Shown here: positions 2,851 to 37,134 of the stretch, one piece after another
Layout: the number at the start of each line of letters is the position of its first letter
Numbering within the stretch: position 1 is the first letter of the stretch
Assembly (NCBI GenBank): GCA_947034885.2
Contig: OX344749.2
Location: 33,103,182 to 33,167,181 of the forward strand
DNA: 64,000 nucleotides
Reading direction: 5' to 3'
Origin: Thuidium tamariscinum
Lineage: Eukaryota; Streptophyta; Bryopsida; Hypnales; Thuidiaceae
Program-made: the position numbers and the translations under genes
The notes under the pieces: generated by a model
Seen by the model: only the letters and a program-made list of their open reading frames with translations
What the model was told of the DNA's origin: nothing
Databases searched by the model: none

Positions 2851-3509
2851 TTAAAACCCCTAAATGCCCAAGACACCAAAATCTAGTGTTTGCAAAACTT
2901 TGACATTAAATAAAACCTAATCAAATTGATATTTTTAGTATTTCATATTTTTGGAAACTTTTTTTTGAAGTCTAGTTTAAACATGAAAAAATCTAATCTT
3001 GAAAATGATTGATTATAATTATTCTATTTAAGATTTTGTACAAGGGTGTCCCTTGCAATCTTGACTTTCCATAGCATTGAGGGTTCTTGAAAATGAGCCT
3101 CAAATACACTAGATTTTGGAGAGAAAACCACATTTGAAATTCATTTAAAAAAATTGTAGAGTAGATTTTGGGAAGCCATAAAGTGATTGGAATTATTCAA
3201 TCTAGGCCCTTCAACCTCATCTTTTTTCGGTGACCAACTTTTTAGATTTGACATGTCAAAAAGTGAATCGAAAGACTTCAAATCTTTTTTGCAATTTTAA
3301 TACCTTCTTGATCAAACATTATAATCTTTCGATCTATATATTATATTTTTGGATTTTCTTTTTCCTAAGTGATCTCCAGCATATCTATTTTGAATTGATA
3401 TAGTTACATTTCAAAAAAATTGATAAAACTAATCAAAATGTTGGCATTTTGTTCAATTTAGAACAAATTCCAAGAAATTCAAAATAGGCCTTGGGCATTT
3501 AGGAATTAA
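2851..3509. mobile_element. TTAA-flanked TIR element, copy A (non-autonomous)
   Basis: A roughly 650-bp element with ends TTAAAACCCCTAAATGCC (left) and the inverted CATTTAGGAATTAA (right), each bounded by TTAA. It codes for nothing. Its whole interior aligns in reverse orientation with 34898-37134 once the Tc1 insertion there is removed (about 651 against 659 bp). TTAA at both ends plus C-rich termini resembles piggyBac target use, but a Harbinger-type TTA/TAA duplication cannot be excluded because the flank is palindromic. Confidence 0.65.
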
Positions 3510-4645: not shown

Positions 4646-4795
4646 TATTTTGACTTCCAATGAGTATGTTTGACTCATTCAAAGTAGATGATGTCACACA
4701 GTATCATAAAGCACAATGAGTATTTTGACTTCCAATGAGTATGTTTGGCTCATTCAAAGTAGATGATGTCACACAGTATCATAAAGCACAATGCA
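4646..4795 (+). repeat. 75-bp tandem duplication, two copies
   Basis: Two head-to-tail copies (4646-4720 and 4721-4795) differ at only a few bases, for example GTTTGACTC against GTTTGGCTC. The period is 75 bp. The near identity points to a recent local duplication in otherwise unremarkable DNA. Confidence 0.85.
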
Positions 4796-21800: not shown

Positions 21801-22196
21801 AATTAGCTCCAGTTGAGACTGTATTTTTTGTGTGCAAATCGAACCTTTCTGCTACATGGAGCTAATTGATGGTGTTAGATTTCCAAAAACTGTTGTTTGG
21901 TCTTTGCCTTGGTGTCTACTTCTAATCAAACTTATGACGTTGTTTGTTACCTCAGGTATTAAATTGGGAGCCAGCAGTTGGAAGTAGGTGGTTAGATCTT
22001 TTATGTTGCGAGCTGATCGAGGACGGACGACTAGGTGGCTGGAAATCGCGACTAAATTCCCGTTCAATATGTATGCACTCTAGCTCTGCGGCAGATCTGA
22101 CTGTTGCAGAGTCGTTTCAACATTCAAAACTTTCCCAGTACGCTATTAAAATCAGTCGCAATTGCTCCTCCGCAATTTCCCGTGTCTTGGTTTGGA
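18870..22196 (+). promoter_or_regulatory. Putative promoter and long 5' leader of the ARF gene
   Basis: A composition island unlike the AT-rich DNA to its left. It contains a (CCCGT)n-like run at 18929-18975, overlapping GAGTCACGAGTCACGACTC words near 18880, repeats of TTAGCTTAGC near 19160-19190, and a (GA)n tract at 19744-19763 of the kind common in plant leaders. No frame here has coding signs. A good acceptor (TTGTTTGTTACCTCAG, ending at 21955) suggests a leader intron. The transcription start cannot be placed by eye. Confidence 0.5.
21490..21880 (+). repeat. Diverged tandem duplication in the ARF leader
   Basis: Two ~200-bp units, about 21500-21690 and 21715-21880, share in order GGATTGTGGTTT, TGCTTTCTAGCTACTT / TGCTTAGTTGCTTA, TAGACAACGCAATTAGC-like, TGTGTAAATCGGACTT / TGTGCAAATCGAACCTT and CATGGAGCT. 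The alignment is by eye and patchy. It lies just upstream of the likely leader acceptor at 21955. Confidence 0.65.
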
Positions 22197-25100
22197 ATGC
22201 CCGGGCCTGGCCCTCGGCTTTCGATGAGTGTGAAAATGGAAAAACACGATGACACTGGAGGGTGTGTGGGGTCTGGAGAGAGTGTGGGACGTCTGGATGC
22301 CCAGCTATGGCATGCTTGTGCTGGAGGCATGGTGCAGCTTCCGGCTGTGGGTGCCAAGGTCATTTACTTCCCCCAGGGGCATGGAGAGCAGGCGGCCACC
22401 ACTCCTGATTTCCCCCAGTCGTTGGGTCCTTCAGGAACGGTGCCCTGTCGCGTTGTTTCGGTGAACTTTCTTGCTGATACTGAAACCGATGAAGTGTATG
22501 CGCGAATGCGCTTGCAGCCTGAAGGTCTGCCTTTCTCCAATGACCGCTTGGAGGATTTCCCGCTCTCCCCCCCTCCGGAGAAACCAGCCTCTTTTGCCAA
22601 AACTCTCACCCAGAGCGATGCCAACAATGGGGGCGGGTTTTCTGTTCCCCGCTACTGTGCCGAAACCATCTTCCCTCCACTTGATTACTCCATTGACCCT
22701 CCTGTGCAAACTGTCTTGGCGAAGGATGTTCACGGAGATGTCTGGAAGTTTCGGCACATTTACAGGTATGACCTAGGACCCAATGCATTAAGCTAGAGGC
22801 TGCTACAGACGTCACTTCTAATGTCATCTGAAACAATATGTATGATATCGGTGTACAACTCACTGGACGGGTATTACAAGAGTCAAACTTTCTTGAGATC
22901 AAAGTCATAATCACTACATAAGGAATTGCTTATGCAATACTTCAAAGTGGGAGATTGTAGACCATTATGAAAGGGACTGTAGACGAATGTATTTTCAGTC
23001 AATCATCAATGGCCATAGGTATTTGGCGAAATCGTGCTACACCCAACTGCTAATGGAAGGCCGGCTCAAAGTGCTGGAAGAGATGAGTTGCTGCTGGTAA
23101 CAGGTGTCTGTCAGTAGTAAACGGATCAGACCCCTTAGGGTTCAAGCATCCTCTACTTCTCATGCTTGTCCGTCACCTGTTCCTTTGACGACCATGAGGA
23201 ATGTTGGTGAACATGATTATTTATACCTAGTTTCCTGCACAGGGGTACGCCTAGGCGACATCTTCTGACAACAGGCTGGAGCACTTTCGTGAATCAGAAG
23301 AAGTTAGTAGCAGGAGACGCGATTGTGTTCTTGCGCAGCGCTTCCGGTGAGCTCTGTGTAGGTGTGCGACGTTCGATGCGAGGCACCAGTGGTGGCGACA
23401 CTTCTACTTGGCACTCGTCAGCCAGTGCAACGTCAGCTATGCGGGCCTCACGTTGGGAGGTGAAGGGTACCGAGAGTTTCTCAGATTTTTTTGGTGGAAT
23501 GGGTGACAATGGCCACAGTGGATTAAGCAATGGGATTCGACCTGGAAGTCAGGGCTCATCAACTACAAGTAGCTTTGCCCGAAACCGTGCCCGCGTCACT
23601 GCGAAATCTGTACTGGAGGCTGCTTCACTGGCTGTGGCTGGAAAGCCGTTTGAGGTTGTGTACTACCCACGTGCTAGCACAGCCGAGTTCTGTGTGAAAG
23701 CTGCTCTGGTAAAACAAGCTCTAGATCACACATGGTATGCAGGTATGCGTTTCAAGATGGCGTTTGAGACCGAGGACTCTTCACGGATCAGTTGGTTTAT
23801 GGGGACTATCGCTGCAGTTCAGCCGGCTGATCCCCTCCTTTGGCCTAATTCTCCATGGCGCGTATTACAGGTATGGTAATGTAGTGAAGGCTTTCTCCCT
23901 ATAAGTTCCAGTGCATTGAACGTTGCAAGCTTTGGCAGTCAATTTCGATTTCATTTCGGGATCAGCATCGAAGCTCAGTGCCGAGATCAGACCTGTTCAA
24001 CAGGAGCCAAACTATCTTGAGCTCACCTTTTTTTCTGTGTTCGAATTTTTTGTGCAATCTTTTGAAGGTGGGGGGCTGTAGACCGCTATTGAAGAGACTA
24101 TAGGAAACGCCATGTATATTCGAAGATCAGTAACCATAGACATTTTAGTCGATCCATGCTTTCACCAACGTGTTAATTGAAGTCCATCTAAGTGGAAGAG
24201 AGAGTTGCTGTTGGTAATAGGGGTCGGTCAATATGAGATGTTATCATGTTTTAGTGACCTCAGTTGCTAACCTAATTGTGGCTAATGCAGGTTACTTGGG
24301 ACGAGCCAGACCTACTGCAGGGTGTGAGTCGTGTGAGTCCCTGGCAGGTGGAGCTCGTGGCCACCTTGCCAATGCAGTTGCCCCCCTTCTCCTTGCCCAA
24401 AAAGAAACTGCGTGCTGTCCAGCCCCAGGAACTGCAGCTGCAGGCACCGGGGCTGCTCGGCCTGCCCTTAGCAGGCTCCACCAGCACCTTTACGGGACAG
24501 CTGCCCGCCCCATGGGGGGGCCCTGCACTCTTAGACGACGTCTCTGCAGGCATGCAGGGAGCCAGGCATGATCGCTTTAACGGGCTTCTAACCATGGATT
24601 TCCGGAATAGTAACTACAAGCATCCTCGAGAGTACCCAAGCGACAACTACTACAGCGAGCAGGTCCCTCCTGTTCGGGACCTCTTGAGTGATTCTCCTTC
24701 TGGTAACAATCATCACTTCTCTCTCCTCCCCAACGGACAACAGCAGCACCGATCACAAACCACAGTGAGCAGCTTTCTGCCCGCTGCTGCGAATTCCCAG
24801 CAGGGAGAGAACCATACGACTACTACCAAGACGACCTCCACCTCTTTTTTCCTCTTCGGGCAGTCCATCGACCCCACTTGCACTTCCAAGCCGCAGCAGC
24901 AGCAGTGTGCGGCATCGGGAAACAGCTCATCGGATGGTCCTCTTCTCCATGATGGCTTGCGGGTATCTACCACCAGCAACTCATCCTCTGACAACACATT
25001 CGAGAACAGGGACAGGATGAGAGGCTTCAATAACAGTAGGGGAGACGGAGCTGTGTCCCGGTACCGACAGAACGACAACAGCAGCGGCCATTGGTCAGAC

Positions 25101-25655
25101 CTTTCGATTGGAAGCGGGGGTGAGGTAGGCAGCTTGAAGTGGTTCAAAGACCAAGCTGCCGCTGACAGGGAGAAAGGAGGGTTGAATGAGGCGCTTCATC
25201 ATTGCAAAGTGTTCAGGGAGGGTGATGAAGTGGGAAGGACTCTTGACCTTTCCATCTTCCGCTCTTATGATGAAATATACGACCGTCTGGGTGACATGTT
25301 CAGCGTTCCTACACCCGATTTCAAGGACCGGCTGGTGTACCAGAATGCTGAAGGCTCCACCAGGCATGTTGGTGCAGAGCCGTACAGGTAGGTTCCAAGG
25401 ACGGCTCTCCTCTCCTTTTCCATCTGTCCTGGAGGACATTATTGATGTGCAGCTCATGCCATGTCAGGATCTGCAGGCCCGTCATACATCACCATGTATC
25501 TTTGTCTAGAGACTGGGCTGTAAGTACCAATTGATTTTGACTTTTCACCCTGATGAGATGTGCCCCATGTTGGAAATGGCAGGAGCTTTGTCACGGCAGT
25601 CAGGCGACTTACGATCCTACCTGAAGCGAGTAATGGCAGCGCAGTGCGATCGTAG
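22197..25655 (+). CDS. ARF: Auxin response factor, class C (ARF10/16/17 type)
   Basis: Nuclear DNA-binding transcription factor that binds auxin response elements; class C members repress transcription. Exons are 22197-22765, 23243-23870, 24291-25387 and 25583-25655, all GT-AG, summing to 2367 nt (788 residues plus stop). Dimerisation begins around [13 protein letters not shown] (residue 33 on). The B3 domain follows, with [14 protein letters not shown] and [13 protein letters not shown]; its last part and the auxin-response domain ([25 protein letters not shown]) are in exon 2. Exon 3 holds a Q/S/N-rich middle region with the miR160 site, then a PB1 domain ([19 protein letters not shown], from about residue 700) finished by exon 4 (RRLTIL). 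The ATG at 22197 is the first in frame. The ATG at 22236 has a better context (AAAATGGAA) and would remove 13 residues. The SDANNGGGF form of the B3 motif is the class C type. The gene is intact. Confidence 0.94.
22790..23115 (+). repeat. Sequence in ARF intron 1 shared with intron 2
   Basis: Intron 1 (22766-23242) and intron 2 (23871-24290) share ordered blocks: AAACTTTCTTGAGATCA / AAACTATCTTGAGCTCA, TGTAGACCATTATGAAAGGG / TGTAGACCGCTATTGAAGAG, and GAGTTGCTGCTGGTAACAGG / GAGTTGCTGTTGGTAATAGG. Homology runs over about 300 bp. The flanking exons are not duplicated, so this is either an inserted repeat or copying between introns. Confidence 0.75.
23945..24235 (+). repeat. Sequence in ARF intron 2 shared with intron 1
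   Basis: Partner of 22790-23115. The order and spacing of the conserved blocks are kept, and the relation ends before both splice sites. Intron 3 (25388-25582) does not carry it. Confidence 0.75.
24548..24568 (+). promoter_or_regulatory. miR160 target site in ARF exon 3
   Basis: A 21-nt site with the core GCAGGGAGCCAGGCA, differing from a perfect ARF17-type miR160 target only at its first base. It is read in frame as A-G-M-Q-G-A-R-H, the residues conserved in class C ARFs. The expected effect is AGO1-guided slicing between the bases opposite miRNA positions 10 and 11. Its position after the auxin-response domain is the usual one. Confidence 0.93.
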
Positions 25656-34897: not shown

Positions 34898-34948
34898 TTA
34901 ACCCCTAAATGCCCAAGCCCTTTTCTAAGCCTGTAGGAATTTGCTCTA

Positions 34949-36532
34949 CAGTGACTCACAAAAGTTCTTGGCTACTACTTGTGACCGTGAAAATGGGACA
35001 AAAGCTTTTGGACTTGTGAGAAATAGTAAGCAAGATTCATCATAGATGCTACACATGTTGTCAAGAACATGTTACAAAAAATTTGTGAAAAGAAAGTTGA
35101 AATGGTAAAAAGAAATTGAAAGAAGTATGCAAAAAGTATGGCCAAGAACATATGTTGATTAACTAGGAAATCATGATAACACAAAGAAAACTCAAAATGA
35201 AAAGCTCAAAAGTAGCAAATGCTACATATGTACAACAACTACAAGTCTACCAACGTGTATATCCACCCTTAGCTACAAGAAGATCAGCCACCCTAGTTGG
35301 CATTGTGCGGATGAGTTTCTGCACAAATTTTACTTCAATGCTTTGCCAAATGACTTGAATCTTCTCCCACAAGTCATCTCTACTTCTGGATGAATCACCC
35401 AACAATCGTAAGCGTCTATCTATTTCATTCCACAAGTGTTCAATAGGATTTAGGTCAGGTGATTGTGGTGGCCACTCCATCATAGAGAATTCTTGCCGAC
35501 CTAGCCATTGTTGTAGAAGACCAGATGTATGCTTCAGGTCATTATCATGCTGGAAAATGACTTCAGCCTCATCAAGACCTTGTCTCTCAATAGTGCCCAA
35601 CAACTGTGAATCTAATATGTTAAGATAAACTTGTGAATTCATAATGCCATCAATGCGATGAAGGTTTCCTACACCTGCCCAACTCATGCATCCCCATACT
35701 ATAATGCTACCACCACCATGTTTAACTGTATGTTGCACATGGCAATCATGAAGAGGCTCTGTAGGATTTTTCCAATACCATTGACGACCATCTGAACCAA
35801 AAATGTTGAACTTGGACTCATCTGACCAAATGACATGACTCTAGTTTTCTACATCGCAGTCTTTAGAAACCTTTGCCCACTGTAAACGTTTCTGCCTATG
35901 CCTCTTTGTTAGCAAGGGTTTCTTCCTTCTCACTCTAGCCCCAAGCCCTTGCCTCCGAAAACTCCAACGGACAGTCTCATCACTCAAACGAAGACCCTAA
36001 GCTCTCAAACTACGCCCAACAGCCGTCGCAGTCCCTAATTTCGGCTGATTCAAAGTCCTCACACCGAGCCTCTCATCCTAAATGCTTCTCTGAACCGAGC
36101 TAAAATGTGACCAATTGTGCTACGAGGAATGGTAAGATGGCTGGCTATGAAACGTTGTGAAAATCCTTGTTCACTCAATGCCATGACTTGGGAACGCTCA
36201 TAAAAATCCGTTTTCTTCATTGTGACTACTAGAAATGTCAAGATTCTTAACTGAAGACCTTTGGAAGCTCCACAAATCTCTACTTACAATGGAAACACAA
36301 GAGGAAGAAGAAGTCACTATAATCAACATATGTAGTTGGCGACCTTTGAGATAAATTGAACCACTCCAAAAAAAATGTACTAGTTGGATTAGCCAAATGA
36401 AGCCACCTATTACTGCATTAAATGATGTTGATTAACCGTAATTAATTTGGGAGGCAGCTTCATTAAACTAACTCCACAATTTCATGCCAAATGGATTCAT
36501 AGACAGTGGCCAAGAACTTTTGTGAGTCACTA
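34949..36532 (-). mobile_element. Tc1-type (DD34E) transposon, 1584 bp
   Basis: Terminal inverted repeats of about 24-26 bp: CAGTGACTCACAAAAGTTCT at the left, and a right end whose complement starts TAGTGACTCACAAAAGTTCT. TA dinucleotides on both sides (34947-34948, 36533-36534) form the Tc1/mariner target duplication. Length and gene layout fit a complete Tc1 element, with one transposase frame on the minus strand. Copy A has the uninterrupted sequence (TA at 3459-3460), proving the insertion. The transposase is decayed, so this copy cannot move by itself. Confidence 0.93.
35247..36220 (-). pseudogene. Tc1 transposase pseudogene, DD34E
   Basis: It formerly encoded about 325 residues. From the ATG at 36220 it reads MKKTDFYERSQVMALSEQGF and a helix-turn-helix (RSTIGHILARF), typical of paired-like Tc1 DNA binding. 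A frameshift lies near 36060, then in-frame TAG codons at 35997-35999 and 35841-35843, the second probably a former Trp codon. The DDE core is still readable: first Asp in VIWSDESKF, second in FQHDNDLKHTS, and Glu in SPDLNPIEHLWNE, with 34 residues between the second Asp and the Glu. The frame ends at a TAG at 35247. The family normally excises and inserts at TA. This copy is inactive. Confidence 0.92.
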
Positions 36533-37134
36533 TAAATTCCACAAAAAGTCAACACTTTGATAAGCTTTATCAATTTTTTTGAAATTTAACTATACAAATT
36601 CAAATTAGACATGCTAGAGATTACTTAGAAAAAGAAAACATGAAAATATCACTTATGGATTGAAAGATTTTAATGTTTGTTCATGTTTGTTCATAAGGGT
36701 GTTAAAATTGCAAAAGTGATTTGAAGTCTTTTGATCCACTTTTTACATGTCAATTTTAAAAGTTGGTTGCCAAAAAAATATGACGTCAAGAAGCCTAGAT
36801 TGCATAATCCCAATCAATTTATGGCTTCTCAAAATCTATACCACAATTTTCTTAAATGAACTTCTAATGTGGTTTTTTCTCCAAGCTCTAGTATATTTGA
36901 GGCTCATTGAGGCTTATTTCCGAGAGCCCTTAAAACTGACACCCTTATACAAAATCTTCAATAGAAAAATCAAAATAAATCATTTTCAAGATTGTATTTT
37001 TAATGCTAAGATTAGACTTCAAAAAGAAGTTTTCTAAAATATGAACTACCAAAAATAACAACTTATTTAGGTTTTATTTATCTTCAAAGTTTTGCAAACA
37101 CTAGATTTTGGTGCCTTAGGTGTTTAGGGATTAA

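Follow-up and report, generated by a model that had tools for sequence, protein, structure and literature searches.

Positions 34949-36532 of the window (the whole 64,000-nucleotide stretch of Thuidium tamariscinum DNA that was analyzed) hold a complete Tc1-like DNA transposon of 1,584 bp. The left terminal inverted repeat (34949-34976, plus strand), on the 3' side of the transposase gene, begins CAGTGACTCAC, and the right one (36505-36532, minus strand), on the 5' side of the gene, begins TAGTGACTCAC when read on the minus strand. The outer 28 bases of the two ends agreed at 26 positions, whereas in 20 shuffled windows the best match per window reached 17 to 19 of 28. With the flanking TA included, the arms 34947-34976 and 36505-36534 were 93% complementary over 30 nt. 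A TA lies directly outside each end, at 34947-34948 on the left and 36533-36534 on the right. The right flank (36533-37132, plus strand) is part of a host repeat, another copy of which (2855-3460, minus strand) matched it at 79% over 616 columns and carries no element. At 3510-3343 (minus strand), approximately 31 kb away, this repeat has a single TA at 3460-3459 and no insert, and the joined flanks of the element aligned to it without a gap across the junction, with 137 of 168 positions identical. Since an empty repeat copy with one TA aligns unbroken to the joined flanks, the TA was duplicated on insertion, and within the window this empty site is what argues best for transposition. The initial annotation had described a whole Tc1 element with matching ends and TA duplications, nested in a repeat that recurs 31 kb away; all of these observations held, with the element's coordinates exact to the base.

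The transposase gene, read on the minus strand, survives in the window copy as a relic. An open stretch at 35247-35837 (197 aa, with the stop counted in the span) contains the DDE_3 domain (Pfam, 9.7e-10) and the entire DD34E triad, with the first catalytic Asp at 35820-35822, the second at 35544-35546 and the Glu at 35439-35441. The 34 residues that separate the second Asp from the Glu are exactly as first annotated, and the first Asp, which had gone unmentioned there, is also present. An N-terminal helix-turn-helix piece lies in another frame at 36059-36241, separated from the catalytic piece by a frame-shifting deletion and stop codons that disrupt the reading frame; of the two pieces scanned, this one matched HTH_23 at 24.6 bits, exactly at the cut-off. 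The complete protein is better seen in a sister copy, L003, which encodes 340 aa when read through one stop. Its stop-free stretch of 320 aa contains HTH_23, HTH_Tnp_Tc3_2 and DDE_3, all above the curated Pfam cut-offs, while the HTH_SB model scored 19.9 bits, below its cut-off of 43, and the best solved relative was the Sleeping Beauty transposase SB100X (E value, 9.9e-50). The paired helix-turn-helix N terminus and DDE_3 domain of Tc1-like elements were thus found in L003, and the window copy retains HTH_23 at the cut-off together with DDE_3. Of 18 Tc1-like loci of the genome, 17, six of them members of the window family, had an Asp-Glu spacing of 34, and the remaining locus, L058, which belongs to a different lineage (lineage B), had a spacing of 35. 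An unbroken transposase frame, as expected of an autonomous element, was found in none of the 10 near-full-length copies of the family.

Counting copies in the source genome, a check proposed in the initial annotation, gave at least 17 loci, distributed over 10 of the 11 large contigs of the assembly; contig C4 had just a 68-bp fragment. The search of the host's own genome returned 30 matches, a lower bound, which we grouped into 10 near-full-length copies, seven partial loci and a pair of short fragments; the matches left over were additional pieces of these loci. All 10 near-full-length copies were flanked by TA on both sides, and the nine other than the window copy were 1,595 to 1,680 bp long. 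The termini CAGT...ACTG were exact at both ends in two copies (L002 and L004), at one end in six, including the window copy, and at neither end in two (L007 and L065). When the flanks of the 10 copies were read, eight had flanks of their own and two shared theirs: L008 (G000:C8 near 13.93 Mb) and L065 (G000:C11 near 3.52 Mb) had nearly identical sequence beyond both ends (12 bases a side), probably as a result of duplication between C8 and C11 and not of two insertions. No short nonautonomous derivatives were seen among the best candidates, since the 14 and 17 matches obtained with the two 230-bp ends all fell at loci already listed.

The plant origin of the surrounding DNA, as claimed for it earlier, was borne out at several levels. 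Arrays of TTTAGGG (at least 121 copies in 2 kb) occupied the sampled start of six of the 11 large contigs, with a few copies at the start of one more, and four contigs started with N. An unbroken rbcL gene was found on a plastid contig of 115 kb, and mitochondrial genes, for example cox1, were recognized by eye on a contig of 103 kb. Three published moss assemblies, in the parts of their descriptions available, have 11 pseudomolecules, mitochondrial genomes of 104.6 to 104.9 kb and plastid genomes of 123.5 to 125.0 kb. The telomere repeats, the size of the mitochondrial contig and the number of large contigs thus point to a moss, although the plastid contig is shorter than in these three. Within the window, an auxin response factor gene lies at 22104-25391, approximately 10 kb from the element; consecutive open stretches of it gave an ARF_AD match above the cut-off (3.4e-23) and B3 and AUX_IAA matches that fell short of theirs. 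Elsewhere in the window, positions 4646-4793 consist of two 75-bp tandem copies that match at 98%. Contamination or an assembly error that brought in animal or fungal DNA might be considered because animals and fungi are the groups in which Tc1 elements are most common, as stated in the accessible parts of two papers (PMC4054914 and PMC7325037). However, a family with 17 or more loci, spread over 10 of the 11 large contigs, is not contamination, most copies have flanks of their own, the element sits inside a host repeat whose empty site lies in the same window, and the auxin response factor gene is close by. We regard a foreign source of this kind as extremely improbable, in line with the initial assessment.

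The near-full-length copies fell into two subfamilies, A1 with six copies and A2 with four. Kimura two-parameter distances (K2P, changes per site) were 0.034 to 0.096 within A1 and 0.036 to 0.107 within A2 but 0.159 to 0.195 between them, and the partial copies were 72 to 78% identical. Between A1 and A2, changes at the first, second and third codon positions numbered 916, 925 and 1425, with a median dN/dS of 0.31 (24 nonindependent pairs). Third positions were slightly ahead within A1 (286, 300 and 349; median dN/dS, 0.47; 15 nonindependent pairs), and there was no third-position excess within A2 (176, 186 and 157; median dN/dS, 0.73; six nonindependent pairs). The third-position excess and the low dN/dS between the subfamilies indicate that the transposase gene was constrained while A1 and A2 diverged, and the codon pattern as a whole fits selection on a working transposase during this split followed by decay. 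The old, multiwave structure of the family shows long residence in the host lineage, which is compatible with an ancient transfer without proving one.

In addition to its outer ends, the window copy carries a pair of inner repeats at 35141-35162 (minus strand) and 36319-36340 (plus strand). Each is 22 nt long, shares a core with the outer ends and lies 192 bp from its end, so that the pair is symmetric, and each runs in the opposite orientation to the outer repeat at its end. Allowing up to five changes, the 3' inner repeat was found in all 10 near-full-length copies, 178 to 192 bp from the end, and the 5' inner repeat was found in all six A1 copies and in none of the four A2 copies. Shuffling the bases of one copy 300 times never gave a match. 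The inner repeat may be a second transposase-binding site, although this function is a guess. Direct repeats of the Sleeping Beauty type were considered for the family and ruled out, because its inner repeats are inverted relative to the outer ones.

The window family is not the only Tc1-like lineage in this genome. The DDE_3 profile matched 48 times; 30 of these loci were fetched, leaving out 18 matches, and 20 were used for a tree after 10 had been removed beforehand as truncated, frame-broken or extra family-A copies. These 20 loci formed three lineages: A, which is the window family, B and C. In the catalytic domain, lineage B was 0.36 to 0.41 and lineage C 0.22 to 0.29 identical to the lineage A copy L059, and identities to Sleeping Beauty were 0.39 to 0.42 for A (four copies, 223 columns), 0.34 to 0.38 for B and 0.28 to 0.32 for C. 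By this measure, the window family is about as close to Sleeping Beauty as it is to lineage B and is far from lineage C. The tree placed A with Sleeping Beauty, the single named eukaryotic relative not taken from the host genome, at 70/66, which does not amount to support, and lineage B was weakly supported (54/72). Only five of the 19 inner branches were well supported, and both outside rows were long-branched. Approximately unbiased (AU) tests did not reject a single moss clade (P = 0.057) or a grouping of A with B (P = 0.186). Because it includes a single named eukaryotic relative, the tree allows no statement on transfer.

Lineage B comprised the loci L050, L057, L058 and L060. At L058, inverted ends of 45 nt that were 82% complementary and began CAGTGACTTC enclosed a span of approximately 1,591 bp. 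The lineage C element L038 (G000:C1:30709249-30712713), located 2.4 Mb from the window, is approximately 2.1 kb long, with 31-nt inverted ends that are 97% complementary, and its transposase has a stop-free frame of 341 aa.

Neither the presence of Tc1 elements in a plant nor the hypothesis of their transfer is new. One of the papers on this subject, PMC7466625, is presumably by Vendrell-Mir et al. In the sections available, Liu and Yang (2014, PMC4054914) described the DD34E Tc1-like elements PpTc1 and PpTc2 in Physcomitrella, together with segments in nine angiosperms. PpTc1 is 1,584 bp long, with a 33-bp terminal inverted repeat, an open reading frame of 338 aa and 85 young copies, of which nine are intact with transcripts, and PpTc2 is 1,709 bp long (PMC4054914). 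Castanera et al. (2016, PMC4905642) reported, in the portion accessible, that Mariner2_PPa of Physcomitrella is 71% identical over 71% of the sequence to a Pleurotus element and that the moss falls inside the basidiomycete clade of their tree, and horizontal transfer from fungi was proposed there for Physcomitrella elements. The available part of the 2020 paper also suggested fungal transfer for both PpTc elements and noted no similar elements in Marchantia, Arabidopsis or rice (PMC7466625). As far as the accessible sections go, a review (PMC9033089) and a search of the literature on moss genomes yielded nothing on moss Tc1 elements that goes beyond the papers cited here. DD39D PlantMar elements, which are set apart from Tc1, were found in both dicots and monocots but in no surveyed bryophyte, according to the part of the 2020 study at hand (PMC7325037). 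This bears on two general statements of the initial annotation: that plant elements are typically DD39D applies to dicots and monocots but not to the surveyed bryophytes, and that DD34E Tc1 elements are chiefly animal and fungal is right as to where they are commonest but overlooks those of Physcomitrella, in print since 2014 (PMC4054914). With a moss host and published DD34E elements in another moss, most of the surprise is gone. Membership of the window element in PlantMar was ruled out by the spacing of 34 and by Glu as the third residue.

The window family probably belongs with the Tc1-like elements of Physcomitrella, as judged by element size, open reading frame length and ends. A stricter version of this relationship would make it PpTc1 itself, inherited vertically among mosses. 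By description, the two agree in the length of 1,584 bp, in CAGT ends, in the terminal inverted repeat (approximately 28 to 36 versus 33 bp), in an open reading frame of approximately 340 versus 338 aa and in DD34E. The equal length is partly chance, however, because the window copy has a deletion and the nine other copies are longer, and lineage B, at approximately 1,591 bp in L058, is similar in size too. We consider identity with PpTc1 somewhat doubtful.

Horizontal origin of the moss Tc1-like elements in general is plausible, and for the window family it is possible. In its specific form, the family would have come into the moss lineage from an animal or fungal donor, independently of the elements in Physcomitrella, a scenario that we judge rather unlikely. 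The catalytic domain of lineage A, which is no closer to lineage B than to Sleeping Beauty and far from C, the position of A in the tree and the published trees that place Physcomitrella elements among fungal ones, in the sections available (PMC4905642 and PMC7466625), all speak in its favor. Set against this, the tree has one named outside eukaryotic relative and is compatible with one moss clade or with A plus B, and the two old subfamilies and the partial copies at 72 to 78% identity reflect long residence, so that any transfer was not recent. Searches of microbial sequences pointed to no donor either: viral contigs (42 and 10 pattern matches) and prokaryote genomes (55 and 54) gave no confirmed relative, although an animal or fungal donor is not expected in such collections. 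By tblastn, no relative of the L003 transposase was found in phages, and bacterial plasmids yielded three records at 25 to 26% identity, one annotated as IS630 and two without annotation. A broader proposal is that mosses took up Tc1 repeatedly, so that A, B and C would each have had a different donor among animals or fungi and A would be a Sleeping Beauty-like, animal-type lineage independent of the Physcomitrella elements; we think it unlikely.

Overall, the window element is very probably a dead member of a Tc1-like (DD34E) cut-and-paste family resident in the moss nuclear genome. In the live family, a transposase of approximately 340 aa would have used its N-terminal helix-turn-helix domains to bind the inverted ends and its DDE domain to excise the element and insert it at a TA, with duplication of that TA. 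These cut-and-paste steps are inferred from the family to which the element is assigned, whereas the ends, the TA duplication, the empty site and the domains were observed directly. The window copy entered an older host repeat and has since had its reading frame broken. The family probably spread in at least two waves, corresponding to A1 and A2, and the copies seen are relics. By itself, this finding leaves existing knowledge unchanged. It adds a second moss, one with a chromosome-scale assembly, to Physcomitrella as a published host of Tc1-like elements; in this moss, a family with old, repeated amplification is found beside two other Tc1-like lineages, and with the moss genomes now being released, repeated transfer from fungi or animals to mosses becomes a testable question.

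Among known systems, Sleeping Beauty has an IR/DR layout, in which each end holds an inner and an outer binding site in direct orientation, and the PlantMar mariners have TA as their target. Sleeping Beauty, a reconstructed fish Tc1-like transposase (PDB 5cr4), shares DD34E and a catalytic domain 0.39 to 0.42 identical with the window family, but the direct arrangement of inner and outer repeats that defines IR/DR is absent from the family, whose inner repeats run inverted to the outer ones. The PlantMar mariners belong to the same Tc1/mariner superfamily, but they are DD39D and the window element is DD34E (PMC7325037, in the section available). By published description, the closest known systems also include Mariner2_PPa from Physcomitrella and TIR_1 from Pleurotus ostreatus (PMC4905642, accessible part). 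PpTc1, with its 85 young copies, nine of them intact and transcribed, differs from the window family, which has at least 17 loci, is older and has no intact copy among the 10 that are near full length. With PpTc1 and PpTc2 together, likened by description, the window family has in common a moss host, DD34E, CAGT ends, TA duplication, a transposase of approximately 340 aa and a length of approximately 1.6 to 1.7 kb.
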